From the IMG/VR virus record IMGVR_UViG_3300025425_000033, positions 1-48,456 of that record: a DNA stretch of 48,456 nucleotides. One strand, given 5' to 3'. The notes beneath the pieces were generated by a model that made no database searches, had not been told where the DNA came from, and saw only the letters and a program-made list of their open reading frames with translations. Shown here piece by piece: positions 11,320-15,360 of the stretch (position 1 is its first letter; each line of letters starts with the position of its first letter). This stretch comes from a virus. The position numbers and the translations under genes are program-made.

Positions 11320-11777
11320 CTTTCTTCCCGCTTTGCTACGACCTCTGGTCTTGGGGTGATGGACTTCTGCGGGTGTCTGAAACGGGTCGTGTCCCACGGC
11401 TTCATGACGCGGAGCCGCCAATGCCCAAACGCTATATAGAGCGCATCGTGATGCCACATGATGCGTTTCCGCGATGTGCTGGCTCTCCAGATCCCGTTTT
11501 CTTTCAGTCGATTCCAACTTGGTTCGCGCCTCTCCTTGGCGACCACCTCCAGCGGGATGTACCACTCAAGAAATCCCTTCCGACGGTTTAACCACGAGTC
11601 GTCTTCGCCCGCAGCACGAGCAGCATCCTCGCCCGTAAGCCGCTTGGCGGCAACACAGTCATGGCCGATGCCGCCACAAGGTGCAAGATCATCAACCCCG
11701 CACCCACATCTATTGGTACAGAGGCCGTCTGCCCCAATATCTCGTAGTTTTGAGGCTACTATTTCAAGTACGGTCAT
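11316..11777 (-). CDS. Early protein with Cys-rich zinc-ribbon-like N-terminus, 153 aa
   Basis: Residues ~15-43 (GADGLCTNRCGCGVDDLAPCG...GHDC) match a small phage/bacterial module in which a GCGCxxDDLxPC block follows DGLC; it is probably metal-binding. The rest is basic with a WWH-type pattern (RIMWHHDALYIAFGHWRLRV). The first 60 bases are closely similar to a second copy at 14941-15000, so the 5' end of this gene has been duplicated. Both ends overlap neighbours by ATGA. Confidence 0.6.
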   Translation of the reverse strand: MTVLEIVASKLRDIGADGLCTNRCGCGVDDLAPCGGIGHDCVAAKRLTGEDAARAAGEDDSWLNRRKGFLEWYIPLEVVAKERREPSWNRLKENGIWRASTSRKRIMWHHDALYIAFGHWRLRVMKPWDTTRFRHPQKSITPRPEVVAKREER

Positions 11778-11992
11778 TGCCTCCTCGCTCTTGTGAGTTC
11801 GTGTATCTGACAGCCAACATTGATCCTTACTCCAGCCTCGTCAGCCAATCGTTCAAGGGTCTTTTTCAGAAAGATTAGTTGGCGCAAATCGTCATCCAAC
11901 GGGCCTGTCTCGTCCTCTAATTTTAGCAGATCATCCAGCACGGCATCGTGGACGCGCTTGGCGTAAAGCCTTGCTCTCTGCTCGTAGGTCAT
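11774..11992 (-). CDS. Hypothetical small helical protein, 72 aa
   Basis: The start at 11992 (MTYEQRARLYAKRVHDAV) has GAGGA upstream and overlaps the upstream stop. The protein is helical and acidic (LLKLEDETGPLDDDLRQLI). The RBS stretch is nearly repeated at the following start (GCCTCCTCGCTCTTGTGA and GCTTCCTCGCTCTTGTGA on the plus strand), a sign of local duplication. Function unknown. Confidence 0.55.
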   Translation of the reverse strand: MTYEQRARLYAKRVHDAVLDDLLKLEDETGPLDDDLRQLIFLKKTLERLADEAGVRINVGCQIHELTRARRQ

Positions 11993-12576: not shown

Positions 12577-12872
12577 GGCTTCACCTCGTTGATCTTGGCG
12601 TGGTGGGTGATTGGATACTGGGGGCTTTCACCGACCCAGTAGTCCCCTTCGCCATCCCACCTTGTCTTGATTATCCCGCCATTTGGGTATCTGACGATGT
12701 AGTCACCTGAATCCGTGGGCCAACCCTCTACCCAAGGGCCAGCGGCGTTACGCCCATTCTGCGCCAAAGCCTCGGCTATGTGCCCGTCAGCCTTGCCGCT
12801 TAGGTAGTCTAGCGATTCGCTCATGCTCTCATATCGTTGATTCGTGAAGGGAAGCCGCGCGTCCGTGGTCAT
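12573..12872 (-). CDS. Hypothetical early protein, 99 aa
   Basis: The C-terminal half (PWVEGWPTDSGDYIVRYPNGGIIKTRWDG) has the look of a small beta-sheet domain found in phage early proteins (W-P-x-x-SGxYxVxxxxG). The stop overlaps the next start. Its start lies 3 bases downstream of the methyltransferase C-terminal remnant. No known function. Confidence 0.5.
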   Translation of the reverse strand: MTTDARLPFTNQRYESMSESLDYLSGKADGHIAEALAQNGRNAAGPWVEGWPTDSGDYIVRYPNGGIIKTRWDGEGDYWVGESPQYPITHHAKINEVKP

Positions 12873-12875
12873 TGC

Positions 12876-12956
12876 TTAACCCCGTAGTCTGGCTGTAAGG
12901 ATGCGGAAGGCCTTTTCTGCGGTGGAGGGCACGACGCCGTTGCCTAAGAGTGAGTA
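12876..12956 (-). pseudogene. Remnant of a C5-methyltransferase C-terminus
   Basis: In the frame ending at the TAA 12876-12878 the translation reads SLLGNGVVPSTAEKAFRIL. This is the LLGNGxVPxxxxxAFxxL motif X region that closes C5 cytosine methyltransferases. The intact methyltransferase upstream ends in the same way (LLGNGCVPQTVSRAFSVL). Only these ~25 codons are recognisable, and they begin inside the last codons of the GIY-YIG gene. I read it as the old 3' end of a methyltransferase gene, cut off by insertion of the endonuclease gene. Confidence 0.6.
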
Positions 12957-13723
12957 CACGCCTGCGAGCAATATTTCCTTGCGCGGTGTTCTTGGATGGA
13001 CATCCGTGCCCCGCATGGGCGCCTTGATCGTTTGACCTCGCTGCCGCACCGTTGGCACCTAACGTGATGTTCGGGAGCCACGTACGCGGACACGCCAAGG
13101 ACCTGTCGCCGATTACGGACAGACATGGTGCCGACGCCTAGGTCTTTCCCTACCTGGACATCGGTCGCCGTAGCAAGGCGAGAATCCATCTTAGGGGTCC
13201 ACACCGTCGGACGTTTGGCAGACGATTTCTTGATGCCAAGCCTAAGCCTCTTGGTCCTAATGGTGTTCTCGTTTATGCCGTACTTCGCTGCCAGTTCGTG
13301 GTCAGGAACCGTGGGCATTTCAGCTAAAATGGGTTCCGGCCATTCGATCTTCGCTCGCCTCCGCATTCCGGGGAATCTCTTCCCTTCCTGGTTGCGCCGC
13401 GCCGAGTACGAGCTGCCCGCGGCCTTGCTTCCTGTGCCGATCTCTGCGACGTTCAGTAGGTTATCAACGCCTATCCCAATAATCATTCGGGCCTCTGCGT
13501 CGATGGCCTGGCCCCGAGTAAGGCCAGACTCTACTGATTCGATGGTGACCAATACACCAGAGGCCGCGAAATTCCCCACAGGCGTGCCCTTGGTCTTATG
13601 CGAAGCCAGCCTATCACGAAGAGACCCACGCGTAATGCCCACGTAGACGACTTGGCGCGTGTCGGATCGACGCACGATATAAACCGTGTTGTCGGTTGGA
13701 AGTGCTACTTCAGTCGGTTCCAT
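12944..13723 (-). CDS. GIY-YIG family homing-type endonuclease
   Basis: The product has 259 residues. The GIY-YIG domain spans about residues 12-95: VYIV at 14-17, YVGI at 27-30, then R and H residues, and a likely metal-binding Glu at 77 (IDAEARM). Two HTH-like DNA-binding units follow (HELAAKYGINENTIRTKRLRL and DVQVGKDLGVGTMSVRNRR), then a zinc ribbon (RCQRCG ... CSQAC). This nuclease plus modular DNA-binding tail is typical of free-standing homing endonucleases. The start overlaps the end of the intact methyltransferase gene by 19 bases and the stop overlaps a second methyltransferase C-terminal motif, so the gene sits exactly at that target. Confidence 0.85.
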   Translation of the reverse strand: MEPTEVALPTDNTVYIVRRSDTRQVVYVGITRGSLRDRLASHKTKGTPVGNFAASGVLVTIESVESGLTRGQAIDAEARMIIGIGVDNLLNVAEIGTGSKAAGSSYSARRNQEGKRFPGMRRRAKIEWPEPILAEMPTVPDHELAAKYGINENTIRTKRLRLGIKKSSAKRPTVWTPKMDSRLATATDVQVGKDLGVGTMSVRNRRQVLGVSAYVAPEHHVRCQRCGSEVKRSRRPCGARMSIQEHRARKYCSQACTHS

Positions 13724-14916
13724 AAGACACTAAAGGCTCTTGATACAGTTTGTGGCACGCAGCCATTTCCGAGGAGGCGCAGTTCGTCAATTCTGGAGTC
13801 ACTGGTTCGGCACAGCTCGGCATAGTCCAGCCGATCGGGATTCCTTGCAGACACTCGACCCACCTCGGGTTCAATCTCGCGCTCTTCGTCTGCCCCACGG
13901 CCTCCCCGATGTTCGACCGGCCCCGATCCTCGATTGAATCTTTGTGCATGAAGGTCCGCGGTGTCGGCCATTGGCGATCCTTCTGCACCACCTGACTCGG
14001 CAACATCAGATCCCCTTTCGACCCCCGTTGGTTCGGGCCGCCCTTCTCCCCGTCGCTGCCTCTCGGCGTTGCCCACGACTCTCGGCGGCTCCCATCCGTA
14101 CTGGGGTTCTGTGGGACCGGAGGGCCATAGCGCATGAAGTTCGGGAGCTGGTCCATGTGGGCGCGGCCCTTCGCTGTCTGCGTGTGTTCCTCGCTGTTTG
14201 TGCCCTTGTGGTCTCTCGCTGCTGGAGTCGGCCATTGCCGCACCTGAGCCGCCAGCGGCAGCCCGAAGCCGTTCCCGTTCTTCTTCTCGGCTTTGACCCG
14301 TAGCCTTCGGCTCTCCAGGCTCTCCAGGCTCTCCAGGCTCTCCAGGCTCTCCCCGTCGTTCATCACGGAGGCGTCGGGAGTCGCCCAGCCTGCCGAGGAT
14401 AAAGACCCGCTTCCTCCTGTGTGGCGCCCCGACTTCTTCCGCTGAGAATATTCCCCACGTTGTCTCGTAACCATCGCTGACCATGTCGCGGATGACTGCG
14501 TCAAGTCCTGAAGTGATATGCCCCTCGACGTTTTCCCAAAAAAGGAGCCTTGGACGCAGTCGTAGATAGTGCTGGCGTATTCGCGGCCACAGGTGGCGCG
14601 GATCGTCCGTTCCAAGACGCTTTCCGGCGTGGCTGAAGGGCTGACAGGGGTAGCCGCCCGATATGAGATCGACTGCACCCACCCACGGATCGGGGTCGAA
14701 GGTGTGTAGATCCGTCCAAATAGGTGCCGCATCCAGTTGACCCGCTTCCATCTTCGCAACCAGGTTGGCGCAGGCGAAGGACTCGATCTCCACAGCAAAT
14801 GCGAGGCGCACATCGAAGCCAAGCGATCTTGCGGCACGCGATATTCCGATGTCGAGTCCTCCGTATCCAGTACAGAATGATCCGACATTAAGGGTAGGTT
14901 TCTTGGTAGTATCCAC
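13705..14916 (-). CDS. DNA (cytosine-5) methyltransferase
   Basis: The product has 403 residues from a GTG start. Motif I (FCTGYGGLDIGI, about 14-25), motif IV with the catalytic Cys91 (GGYPCQPFS), motif VI (ENV, 128-130), motif VIII (PHRRKRVFIL, about 165-174) and motif X at the end are all present, so it is probably active. The target-recognition part (about 180-370) is long, Arg/Glu/Gly-rich and carries five GEP triplets plus repeated MADS/VGNAERQR-like units, common in phage enzymes. It likely protects phage DNA from host restriction. Upstream are a 26-codon frame and a run of eight G (minus strand). Confidence 0.9.
   Translation of the reverse strand: MDTTKKPTLNVGSFCTGYGGLDIGISRAARSLGFDVRLAFAVEIESFACANLVAKMEAGQLDAAPIWTDLHTFDPDPWVGAVDLISGGYPCQPFSHAGKRLGTDDPRHLWPRIRQHYLRLRPRLLFWENVEGHITSGLDAVIRDMVSDGYETTWGIFSAEEVGAPHRRKRVFILGRLGDSRRLRDERRGEPGEPGEPGEPGEPKATGQSREEERERLRAAAGGSGAAMADSSSERPQGHKQRGTHADSEGPRPHGPAPELHALWPSGPTEPQYGWEPPRVVGNAERQRRGEGRPEPTGVERGSDVAESGGAEGSPMADTADLHAQRFNRGSGPVEHRGGRGADEEREIEPEVGRVSARNPDRLDYAELCRTSDSRIDELRLLGNGCVPQTVSRAFSVLWNRLK
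14311..14354 (-). repeat. 9-bp tandem repeat in the methyltransferase recognition region
   Basis: The plus-strand unit CTCTCCAGG occurs four times in tandem, followed by a partial copy, and encodes GEP repeats on the coding strand. Copy-number changes would keep the frame. The repeat sits just after motif VIII, at the start of the target-recognition region. Confidence 0.9.
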
Positions 14917-14917
14917 A

Positions 14918-14998
14918 CTATCGCCCCCCCCAGTCAGACACGAGGCCGTCGGCCCCCAGTTCGCGTAGCCTGTGGGCTACCATTTCGAGTACGGTCAT
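14918..14998 (-). pseudogene. 26-codon frame duplicating the start of the gene at 11777
   Basis: It reads MTVLEMVAHRLRELGADGLV and onward, closely matching MTVLEIVASKLRDIGADGLC of the Cys-rich gene at 11316-11777; the DNA is clearly alike over 60 bases. The frame stops after a run of eight G on the minus strand (14924-14931), just before the methyltransferase GTG. A one-base change in that run would fuse it to the methyltransferase frame. It is probably a truncated paralogue that now supplies a coupled translation start. Confidence 0.5.
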
Positions 14999-15360
14999 TG
15001 CGCCATCTCGTTGATGCGTGAAGGGACGCCGCGGATAACCAGCGACCCTGGCTGGATCATGTACTGCCGCGCCTGCCTCACCATGTCCAAAAACTCGGGG
15101 TCTGTGTCCATCAGCCTGTCGGCCTCCCGCAGGCCGCTAATGATCATCGCGTGATGCCTCCCTCCCAGTACCCGGCCAATGGAATTGAGCGACAGGTGGG
15201 TGTGGTTCCTGATCAGATAGGCGGCGGCGTGTCTCGCATCCACCAGGTGTCTCTTCCGGCACTTGCCCACAATGAGGGCGTTGGAGATATCGAATGCGCG
15301 GCAAACGGCGTCTATAATCTTGCGTGAGGTCGGGGCCATTGCTTCGGGGTGGGTACTCAT
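14995..15360 (-). CDS. DnaA domain IV-like DNA-binding protein
   Basis: The product has 121 residues and resembles the C-terminal DNA-binding domain of the replication initiator DnaA without its ATPase part. The signature region is residues 56-76: LSLNSIGRVLGGRHHAMIISG, like DnaA's S-x-x-x-IG-x-x-x-GGRDHTTVxH. AAAYLIRNHTHL upstream also fits helix positions of that domain. It could bind host DnaA boxes and recruit or block host initiation. The ATG at 15360 overlaps the upstream stop. Confidence 0.8.
   Translation of the reverse strand: MSTHPEAMAPTSRKIIDAVCRAFDISNALIVGKCRKRHLVDARHAAAYLIRNHTHLSLNSIGRVLGGRHHAMIISGLREADRLMDTDPEFLDMVRQARQYMIQPGSLVIRGVPSRINEMAQ

Follow-up and report, generated by a model that had tools for sequence, protein, structure and literature searches.

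The locus

We analyzed the IMG/VR virus record IMGVR_UViG_3300025425_000033, a stretch of 48,456 bases that is referred to as the window. A block of genes on its minus strand consists, in minus-strand order, of a C5-cytosine DNA methyltransferase (MTase) gene, an open reading frame (ORF) of a putative endonuclease, and a second, bare motif X tail. An earlier note on this DNA had placed the endonuclease exactly between two copies of the MTase C-terminal motif; its coordinates and reading frames proved correct on re-reading of the sequence, and the junctions described below are those that it had reported.

The MTase is a frame 0 ORF of 403 amino acids (13705..14916, minus strand) with motifs I-VIII and X. 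It matches the DNA_methylase profile PF00145 (E 6.2e-27, residues 10-181) and phrog_363 (E 3.5e-51, residues 7-395). Its assignment to the C5-cytosine MTases follows from this profile and from the conserved motifs I, IV, VI, VIII and X, all of which are invariant alignment columns; the motif names are those that we take these columns to represent. The protein ends in LLGNGCVPQTVSRAFSVLWNRLK.

The endonuclease ORF (12944..13723, minus strand) encodes 259 amino acids, with a GIY-YIG-like domain, helix-turn-helix-like repeats, and a Cys-rich (zinc-like) end. Its start overlaps the end of the MTase gene by 19 nt (13705..13723, minus strand), and the MTase stop codon (13705-13707) falls within the endonuclease start region. 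At the other end, the endonuclease stop codon TAG (12946-12944) spans the junction of a Leu and the Gly codon in a second LLGNG (two final bases of the former, first base of the latter), inside the second motif X, LLGNGVVPSTAEKAFRILTARLRG, which is out of frame with the endonuclease. The first tail (copy 1, upstream; 13705..13776, minus strand) is read here as a spare 3' end that would have been brought by the element, and the second (copy 2, downstream; 12876..12950, minus strand; LLGNGVVPSTAEKAFRILTARLRG followed by its stop) as the putative old 3' end of the MTase gene. The stop codon TAA of copy 2 and the ATG with which the next gene starts (12872) are 3 nt apart, a spacing that would be expected if copy 2 is the old MTase end. 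As in the yeast WHO elements, the endonuclease adjoins the 3' side of a full-length host gene without splicing, and a fragment of the host 3' end (42.7 bits) is found beyond it.

The two motif X tails

The tail profile has 26 columns and was built from 85 relatives, with the window left out. Copy 1 scores 48.8 bits (E 9.2e-13) and copy 2 scores 42.7 bits (E 7.7e-11) on this profile, whereas the next best match in the whole window, scanned in all six frames, has an E value of 1.8. The second motif X is thus real and far above chance. It is a tail alone, without an MTase body. The copies agree at 8 of 17 residues after GNG and at 38 of 69 bases, so that the difference at the DNA level stated in the earlier note holds, and their likeness ends sharply before LL (5/30 bases). 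The GC content of copy 1 is 47%, calculated for 66 nt only, versus 61% for the window.

Compared with 197 non-redundant tails from other loci, the two copies are rather distant from each other: 58 of these tails are nearer to copy 1 than copy 2 is, and 115 are nearer to copy 2 than copy 1 is. The copies are therefore less alike than many tails of other phages, which argues against a recent in-place duplication. Judged from these comparisons, the two tails probably come from different lineages, and the present MTase 3' end may be a replaced, foreign-looking one.

Tails of related methyltransferases

Related MTases were collected from IMG/VR and genome contigs, with the best 80 loci retained per large scan. 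The resulting 259 loci include the window; the other 258 include L024 and L025, some contigs that are present twice, and some loci that are cut by contig ends. A tail match on the strand of the gene was found in 249 of the 259 loci and none in the remaining 10. Two real tails are present only in the window: second matches in two other loci have scores of 8.7 and 11.2 bits, which is noise, and no second tail above 11.2 bits, i.e., no other motif X insert, was detected in the 258 other loci. The earlier note had pointed out that two tails in relatives lacking the endonuclease would speak against its proposal; among the 258 other loci, which include some truncated at contig ends, this pattern was seen in none. 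No ORF related to the window endonuclease was found in these 258 loci either (phmmer, E <= 1; other kinds of endonucleases were not sought singly).

The first sets comprised 98 loci; 87 of them satisfied the tail and core patterns, and 85 remained after removal of duplicates. The DELRLL flank of the window is shared by 32 of these 85 non-redundant relatives, which represent the nearest subfamily. It had been predicted that relatives without the endonuclease would end in the downstream-type sequence. This is the case for most of the nearest relatives, in which 29 of the 32 tails are nearer to the downstream copy; one is of the upstream type, and two are ties. Among the other 53 relatives, 46 tails are nearer to the downstream copy, two to the upstream copy, and five are ties. 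A comparison with a BLOSUM matrix, in which 242 loci with a tail above 25 bits were reduced to the 197 non-redundant tails, shows the same direction (154 nearer to the downstream copy, 38 to the upstream copy, 5 ties), and so do the 40 relatives closest by flank, of which 30 favour the downstream copy.

When the left flank is rejoined to the downstream copy, the sequence scores 66.8 bits on the profile of the 32 nearest relatives (2/32 lower), versus 61.8 bits for the present C-terminus (0/32 lower); on the broad profile, the corresponding scores are 57.2 (21/85 lower) and 55.0 (14/85 lower), a small gap, and it should be noted that the relatives belong to their own profiles, which raises their scores. 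In a position matrix derived from the 40 closest relatives (leave-one-out for the relatives), the downstream tail scores 38.2, with 4 of 40 at or below this value, and the upstream tail scores 28.1, with 3 of 40 at or below. Together, the tail comparisons and the rejoined-site scores moderately favour the downstream copy as the original MTase end.

The tails nearest to the upstream copy are those of L060, L026 and L113. A scan with the pattern GNGCVPQT for a donor of the upstream tail retrieved three loci, L024, L025 and L026; the first two were rejected as donors, because by context they are not methyltransferases.

The endonuclease

The earlier note had called the ORF a GIY-YIG endonuclease. 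This label is supported in part: PF01541 matches residues 13-46 with an E value of 0.0022, but the score of 18.7 bits is under the curated Pfam cut-off of 22.6. VYI...YVG and the Arg, Glu and Asn residues, picked out by eye, are presumably those of the GIY-YIG signature. Since these residues are present by eye and the profile score is below the cut-off, we use the name GIY-YIG-like.

A search of phages with the endonuclease yielded matches confined to the DNA-binding part, residues 174-259, which comprise the helix-turn-helix repeat and the Cys-rich end. Matches to this part were found in 18 records, which belong to 12 mycobacteriophages. In the six mycobacteriophage records that were fetched of the 18, the match fell in every case in an open frame whose translation looks like an HNH endonuclease and which is nested out of frame in a methylase gene (L002:2980-3606; L003:2977-3603; L004-L007:2968-3603; several genera). 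The identity to this hidden endonuclease is 35% (E 2e-5 in the search, E 8e-13 pairwise). In some records, the hidden frame is annotated as HNH (Applejack gp55, Lamina13 gp62). These matches point to one DNA-binding part that is common to HNH and GIY-YIG-like enzymes, each located in a phage methylase gene.

Other candidate relationships were rejected. Plasmid matches are due to the helix-turn-helix repeats, as checked on L106; this locus (L106:2480-3397) encodes a plasmid-borne protein of repeated helix-turn-helix-like units, and its alignment with the window endonuclease is best explained by the repeats. A scan with the shared DNA-binding part retrieved three loci, L108, L109 and L110, of which L108 and L110 encode other helix-turn-helix proteins. 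The WHO/HO endonuclease family was rejected as well, given that the endonuclease has no intein-like or zinc-finger Pfam match at E <= 0.1 and is GIY-YIG-like instead. No match was found among solved structures (phmmer, E <= 10) or in a library of anti-phage defence proteins. There is no Rfam match at E <= 1 at the locus, which indicates that no known group I intron is present. An intron or intein was rejected on this ground and because the MTase stop codon precedes that of the endonuclease and the remnant is out of frame with the endonuclease.

A putative dual-frame methyltransferase family

A +1-frame ORF of 402 amino acids (13710..14918, minus strand), with WPTP repeats and a motif IX-like sequence, LNPRWVECLQGIPIGWT, extends over the whole MTase gene. 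Its part at 13710-14342 matches phrog_1008, annotated 'DNA methyltransferase' (E 8e-11), whereas frame 0 matches phrog_363. We studied this arrangement in 182 non-redundant MTase ORFs (L008-L105, L111-L270), which are the 259 loci minus 58 in which the core, motif VIII and motif X were not within one ORF and minus 19 duplicates; the window is absent from this set because its tail reads GNGC.

The stretch from motif VIII to motif X is open in the +1 frame in 163 of the 182 ORFs, versus 53.0 expected from synonymous-codon shuffles, and in the +2 frame in none, versus 0.0 expected. The motif IX-like pattern LNPxWVExLMGxP is found in the +1 frame of 149 of the 182 ORFs and never in the other two frames. 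For the window alone, 44.75% of the shuffles are open in the +1 frame, and the shuffle test is uninformative. The loci L245, L263 and L265 were considered as split MTases and rejected; their frame 0 stop codons are in the variable region, where the +1 frame is open.

Substitutions were counted in 62 pairs, with each gene used once, and also in all 1128 pairs, which overlap. In the core, the numbers of substitutions at frame 0 codon positions 1, 2 and 3 are 494, 321 and 1215 (62 pairs). In the first 15 nt past motif VIII, similar numbers occur at positions 1 and 3 (45 and 51), and from just past motif VIII to approximately 30 nt before GNG the excess is at frame 0 position 1, corresponding to the third codon position in the +1 frame. 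The tail again has its excess at position 3 (121, 81 and 363). These patterns suggest that the target-recognition region and motif IX of this MTase family are provided by the +1 frame, and motifs I-VIII and X by frame 0; consequently, the element would have struck a 3' segment that is selected in frame 0. The family looks like a two-polypeptide enzyme of the M.EcoHK31I type, whose small subunit is encoded in an alternative frame, or like a case of double frameshifting. No such dual-frame family of phage methyltransferases was noticed in a limited search of the open-licence literature.

Two further observations concern this gene family. In Paenibacillus phage Bloom, two genes annotated as cytosine methyltransferases (L271:966-2021 and 1168-1872) are present, one nested in the other, in the +1 frame by coordinates. 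In the window, the variable region of the MTase contains a short tandem run of a 9-nt unit, CTCTCCAGG (approximately 14311-14352), that reads GEPGEP in frame 0 and ESLESL in the +1 frame, with no stop codons in either.

Proposed mechanism

The earlier note had proposed that a homing endonuclease with a spare C-terminus entered the 3' end of the MTase gene. The observed anatomy and the single tail of the relatives give this proposal partial support, as do the higher score of the left flank when joined to the downstream copy and the observed kinship of the DNA-binding part; homing as such stays conditional. Overall, we consider it fairly likely that a homing element has brought a replacement 3' end to its host gene and left the old end behind. 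This interpretation is supported by the relationship of the DNA-binding part to the HNH endonuclease nested in methylase genes of mycobacteriophages, and by the same anatomy in the WHO elements of yeasts and in mobile ORFs (mORFs) of fungal mitochondria.

We infer the cleavage site, the repair route, the donor, the direction of transfer and the mobility as follows. The mobile unit would consist of the endonuclease gene plus the C-terminal MTase codons immediately preceding it, as is indicated by the overlap of the upstream tail with the endonuclease start. An endonuclease-free MTase allele would run uninterrupted as DELRLLGNGVVPSTAEKAFRIL, and the endonuclease would cut it at or near the motif X codons (RLLGNG). 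During repair from an element-bearing genome, the divergent end LLGNGCVPQTVSRAFSVLWNRLK and the overlapping endonuclease gene would be copied in, and the MTase would thereby stay whole, as a chimera. The recipient's own end, LLGNGVVPSTAEKAFRILTARLRG, would be displaced downstream by 826 bp and persist there as a remnant, with 3 nt between it and the next gene. Re-cutting would stop, since the target is interrupted by the insertion and the DNA of the new tail is divergent.

Several observations weigh against this interpretation. With respect to the tails, 10 of the 40 relatives closest by flank favour the upstream copy; the preference at the DNA level is small (mean identity to the 32 nearest relatives of 0.58 for the downstream copy versus 0.53 for the upstream copy); the upstream tail, with 3 of 40 relatives at or below it in the position matrix, is unusual yet possible for the subfamily; the rejoined site itself is low among the nearest relatives (2/32 lower); and there are only 17-20 informative residues in a tail. 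In addition, L026 is an MTase of another subfamily that has an upstream-type tail, GCVPQTV, without a relative of the window endonuclease. None of the relatives is close: the 12 that were aligned are 40-56% identical, a scan with the replication protein found no close relatives of the phage, and the terminase matches in phages are 24-26% identical among the matches listed (10 of 37 records). With respect to the endonuclease, its PF01541 score is below the cut-off for the GIY-YIG superfamily; the scans of phages, plasmids, IMG/VR and genome contigs, of which the last two depend on short exact peptide patterns, yielded no relative of the same domain composition; a comparison with ShiLan gp65 (tblastn) yielded at best 37% identity over 35 residues (E 0.07); and a structure prediction made without an alignment has a mean pLDDT of 35.8. 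Finally, this is a single case of one element at one locus.

More speculatively, the element could represent a phage class of 3'-end-replacing homing elements that is independent of the yeast and mitochondrial ones and combines interchangeable DNA-binding modules with GIY-YIG-like or HNH nucleases aimed at methyltransferase genes, here via motif X of a dual-frame MTase. In this reading, motif X would be the one short 3' segment that is needed in frame 0 only, and a spare tail of approximately 20 codons would be sufficient to repair the host gene, with the target-recognition region in the +1 frame left untouched. We regard this wider claim as tentative and rather unlikely. No phage example of the 3'-end-replacing anatomy was recognised in the open-licence PMC literature, which is weak evidence of absence. 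If the claim is true, repeated homing would shuffle MTase tails between phages. The element would also indicate one way in which phages come by chimeric methyltransferases, and its occurrence in a phage, with another nuclease fold, would imply that 3'-end replacement has originated repeatedly and is open to free-standing phage endonucleases.

Alternative explanations

The first alternative is that the phage had tandem MTase genes, of which recombination or deletion left only the tail of the second, and that the endonuclease is merely located between them. Some phages, e.g., Lamina13 and ShiLan, do have more than one methylase gene, and direct repeats flanking the MTase-endonuclease block show that the region has been rearranged. 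Against this, the start of the remnant coincides exactly with the end of the endonuclease, at the motif X codons, the tail profile detects no third tail in the window, and the subfamily of the MTase body is better fitted by the downstream copy than by the upstream one; we consider this scenario unlikely.

A second scenario, quite unlikely in our view, is that, on insertion of the endonuclease, break repair duplicated a short part of the target's 3' end in place and that the upstream copy diverged later. The anatomy alone would be compatible with such a duplication, and the overlap with the endonuclease start could drive the divergence of copy 1. However, the copies agree at just 8/17 residues and 38/69 bases, and for either of them many tails of other phages are closer than its partner; the lower GC content of copy 1 (47%, for 66 nt only) argues in the same direction.

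It is also conceivable that the GIY-YIG-like protein is some other DNA-processing nuclease that arrived by ordinary phage mosaicism at a conserved recombination point, motif X. The PF01541 match under the cut-off and the lack of a detected homologue with the same domain make-up would fit this explanation. Its probability is low, however: the protein combines a nuclease-like domain with helix-turn-helix repeats and a Cys-rich end, and its DNA-binding part is related to the HNH endonuclease that several phage groups carry nested in their methylase genes. Motif X is short, but a chance resemblance or annotation artefact has a negligible probability, and the scores on the tail profile refute it (copy 2, E 7.7e-11; next best match in the window, E 1.8).

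The flanking direct repeats are at 11721-11780 and 14942-15001 (80% identical), and at 12830-12859 and 15004-15033 (90% identical). The first repeat spans the start of the ORF 11777-11316 and recurs just 5' of the MTase gene. The repeats hint that the whole MTase-endonuclease block may have been inserted or duplicated.

Comparison with known systems

The closest parallels to the anatomy of the locus are found outside phages. The WHO elements sit at FBA1 in Torulaspora and Lachancea yeasts (PMC7282813). As in the window, an endonuclease gene is located just 3' of a full-length host gene, and a 3' fragment of that gene lies beyond the endonuclease, with no splicing; the host gene of the WHO elements is a chimera with a replaced 3' end, as is proposed for the window (PMC7282813). 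In the WHO proteins, an intein-like endonuclease is fused to a zinc finger; they occur in clusters at a nuclear gene, and their cleavage has been demonstrated (PMC7282813). In contrast, the window has a GIY-YIG-like protein, a phage methyltransferase and one element, known from sequence alone. The fungal mitochondrial mORFs with carboxy-terminal duplication have the layout that is proposed for the window: the endonuclease ORF comes with a foreign C-terminus that completes the host gene, and the native end lies downstream (PMC3630166). Their endonucleases are of the LAGLIDADG type, with GIY-YIG in atp9, and the host genes are atp6, atp9, cox2 and nad3; unlike the window case, the mORFs are backed by comparisons of close relatives and by RT-PCR (PMC3630166).

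Among phages, the hidden HNH endonuclease of the mycobacteriophages resembles the window endonuclease in its helix-turn-helix and Cys-rich part, which is 35% identical to residues 174-259. It differs in having an HNH catalytic domain, and its host is an unrelated amino-type (DPPY) methylase without a replaced C-terminus and remnant. The ShiLan domain is another out-of-frame HNH insertion in a phage methylase, with a homing-like distribution, and it begins with 11 residues that are similar to the host sequence past the insertion site (PMC11855218). This insertion is located inside the gene, without a replaced 3' end of the kind proposed for the window (PMC11855218). The identity of the hidden mycobacteriophage endonuclease with the ShiLan domain was considered and rejected, because the HNH of ShiLan gp65 matches it weakly (23%, pairwise E 1e-4); the two are alike in arrangement but different in sequence. 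The main text of the ShiLan paper names none of six of these mycobacteriophages (PMC11855218).

In its domain order, the window endonuclease resembles the modular endonucleases of the I-TevI type, which have an N-terminal GIY-YIG domain, C-terminal helix-turn-helix DNA binding, and a zinc-finger element (PMC10448857). Unlike these, it has no solved-structure match at E <= 10, and no intron is present at the window locus.

A further similarity concerns the host MTase gene and not the insertion. M.EcoHK31I consists of two polypeptides, with motif IX on the smaller one, and, as also seems to be the case in the window family, motif IX is set apart from motifs I-VIII and X (PMC3404938). The target-recognition region of the window family appears to be selected in the +1 frame, whereas the predicted one of M.EcoHK31I is on the larger subunit (PMC3404938).

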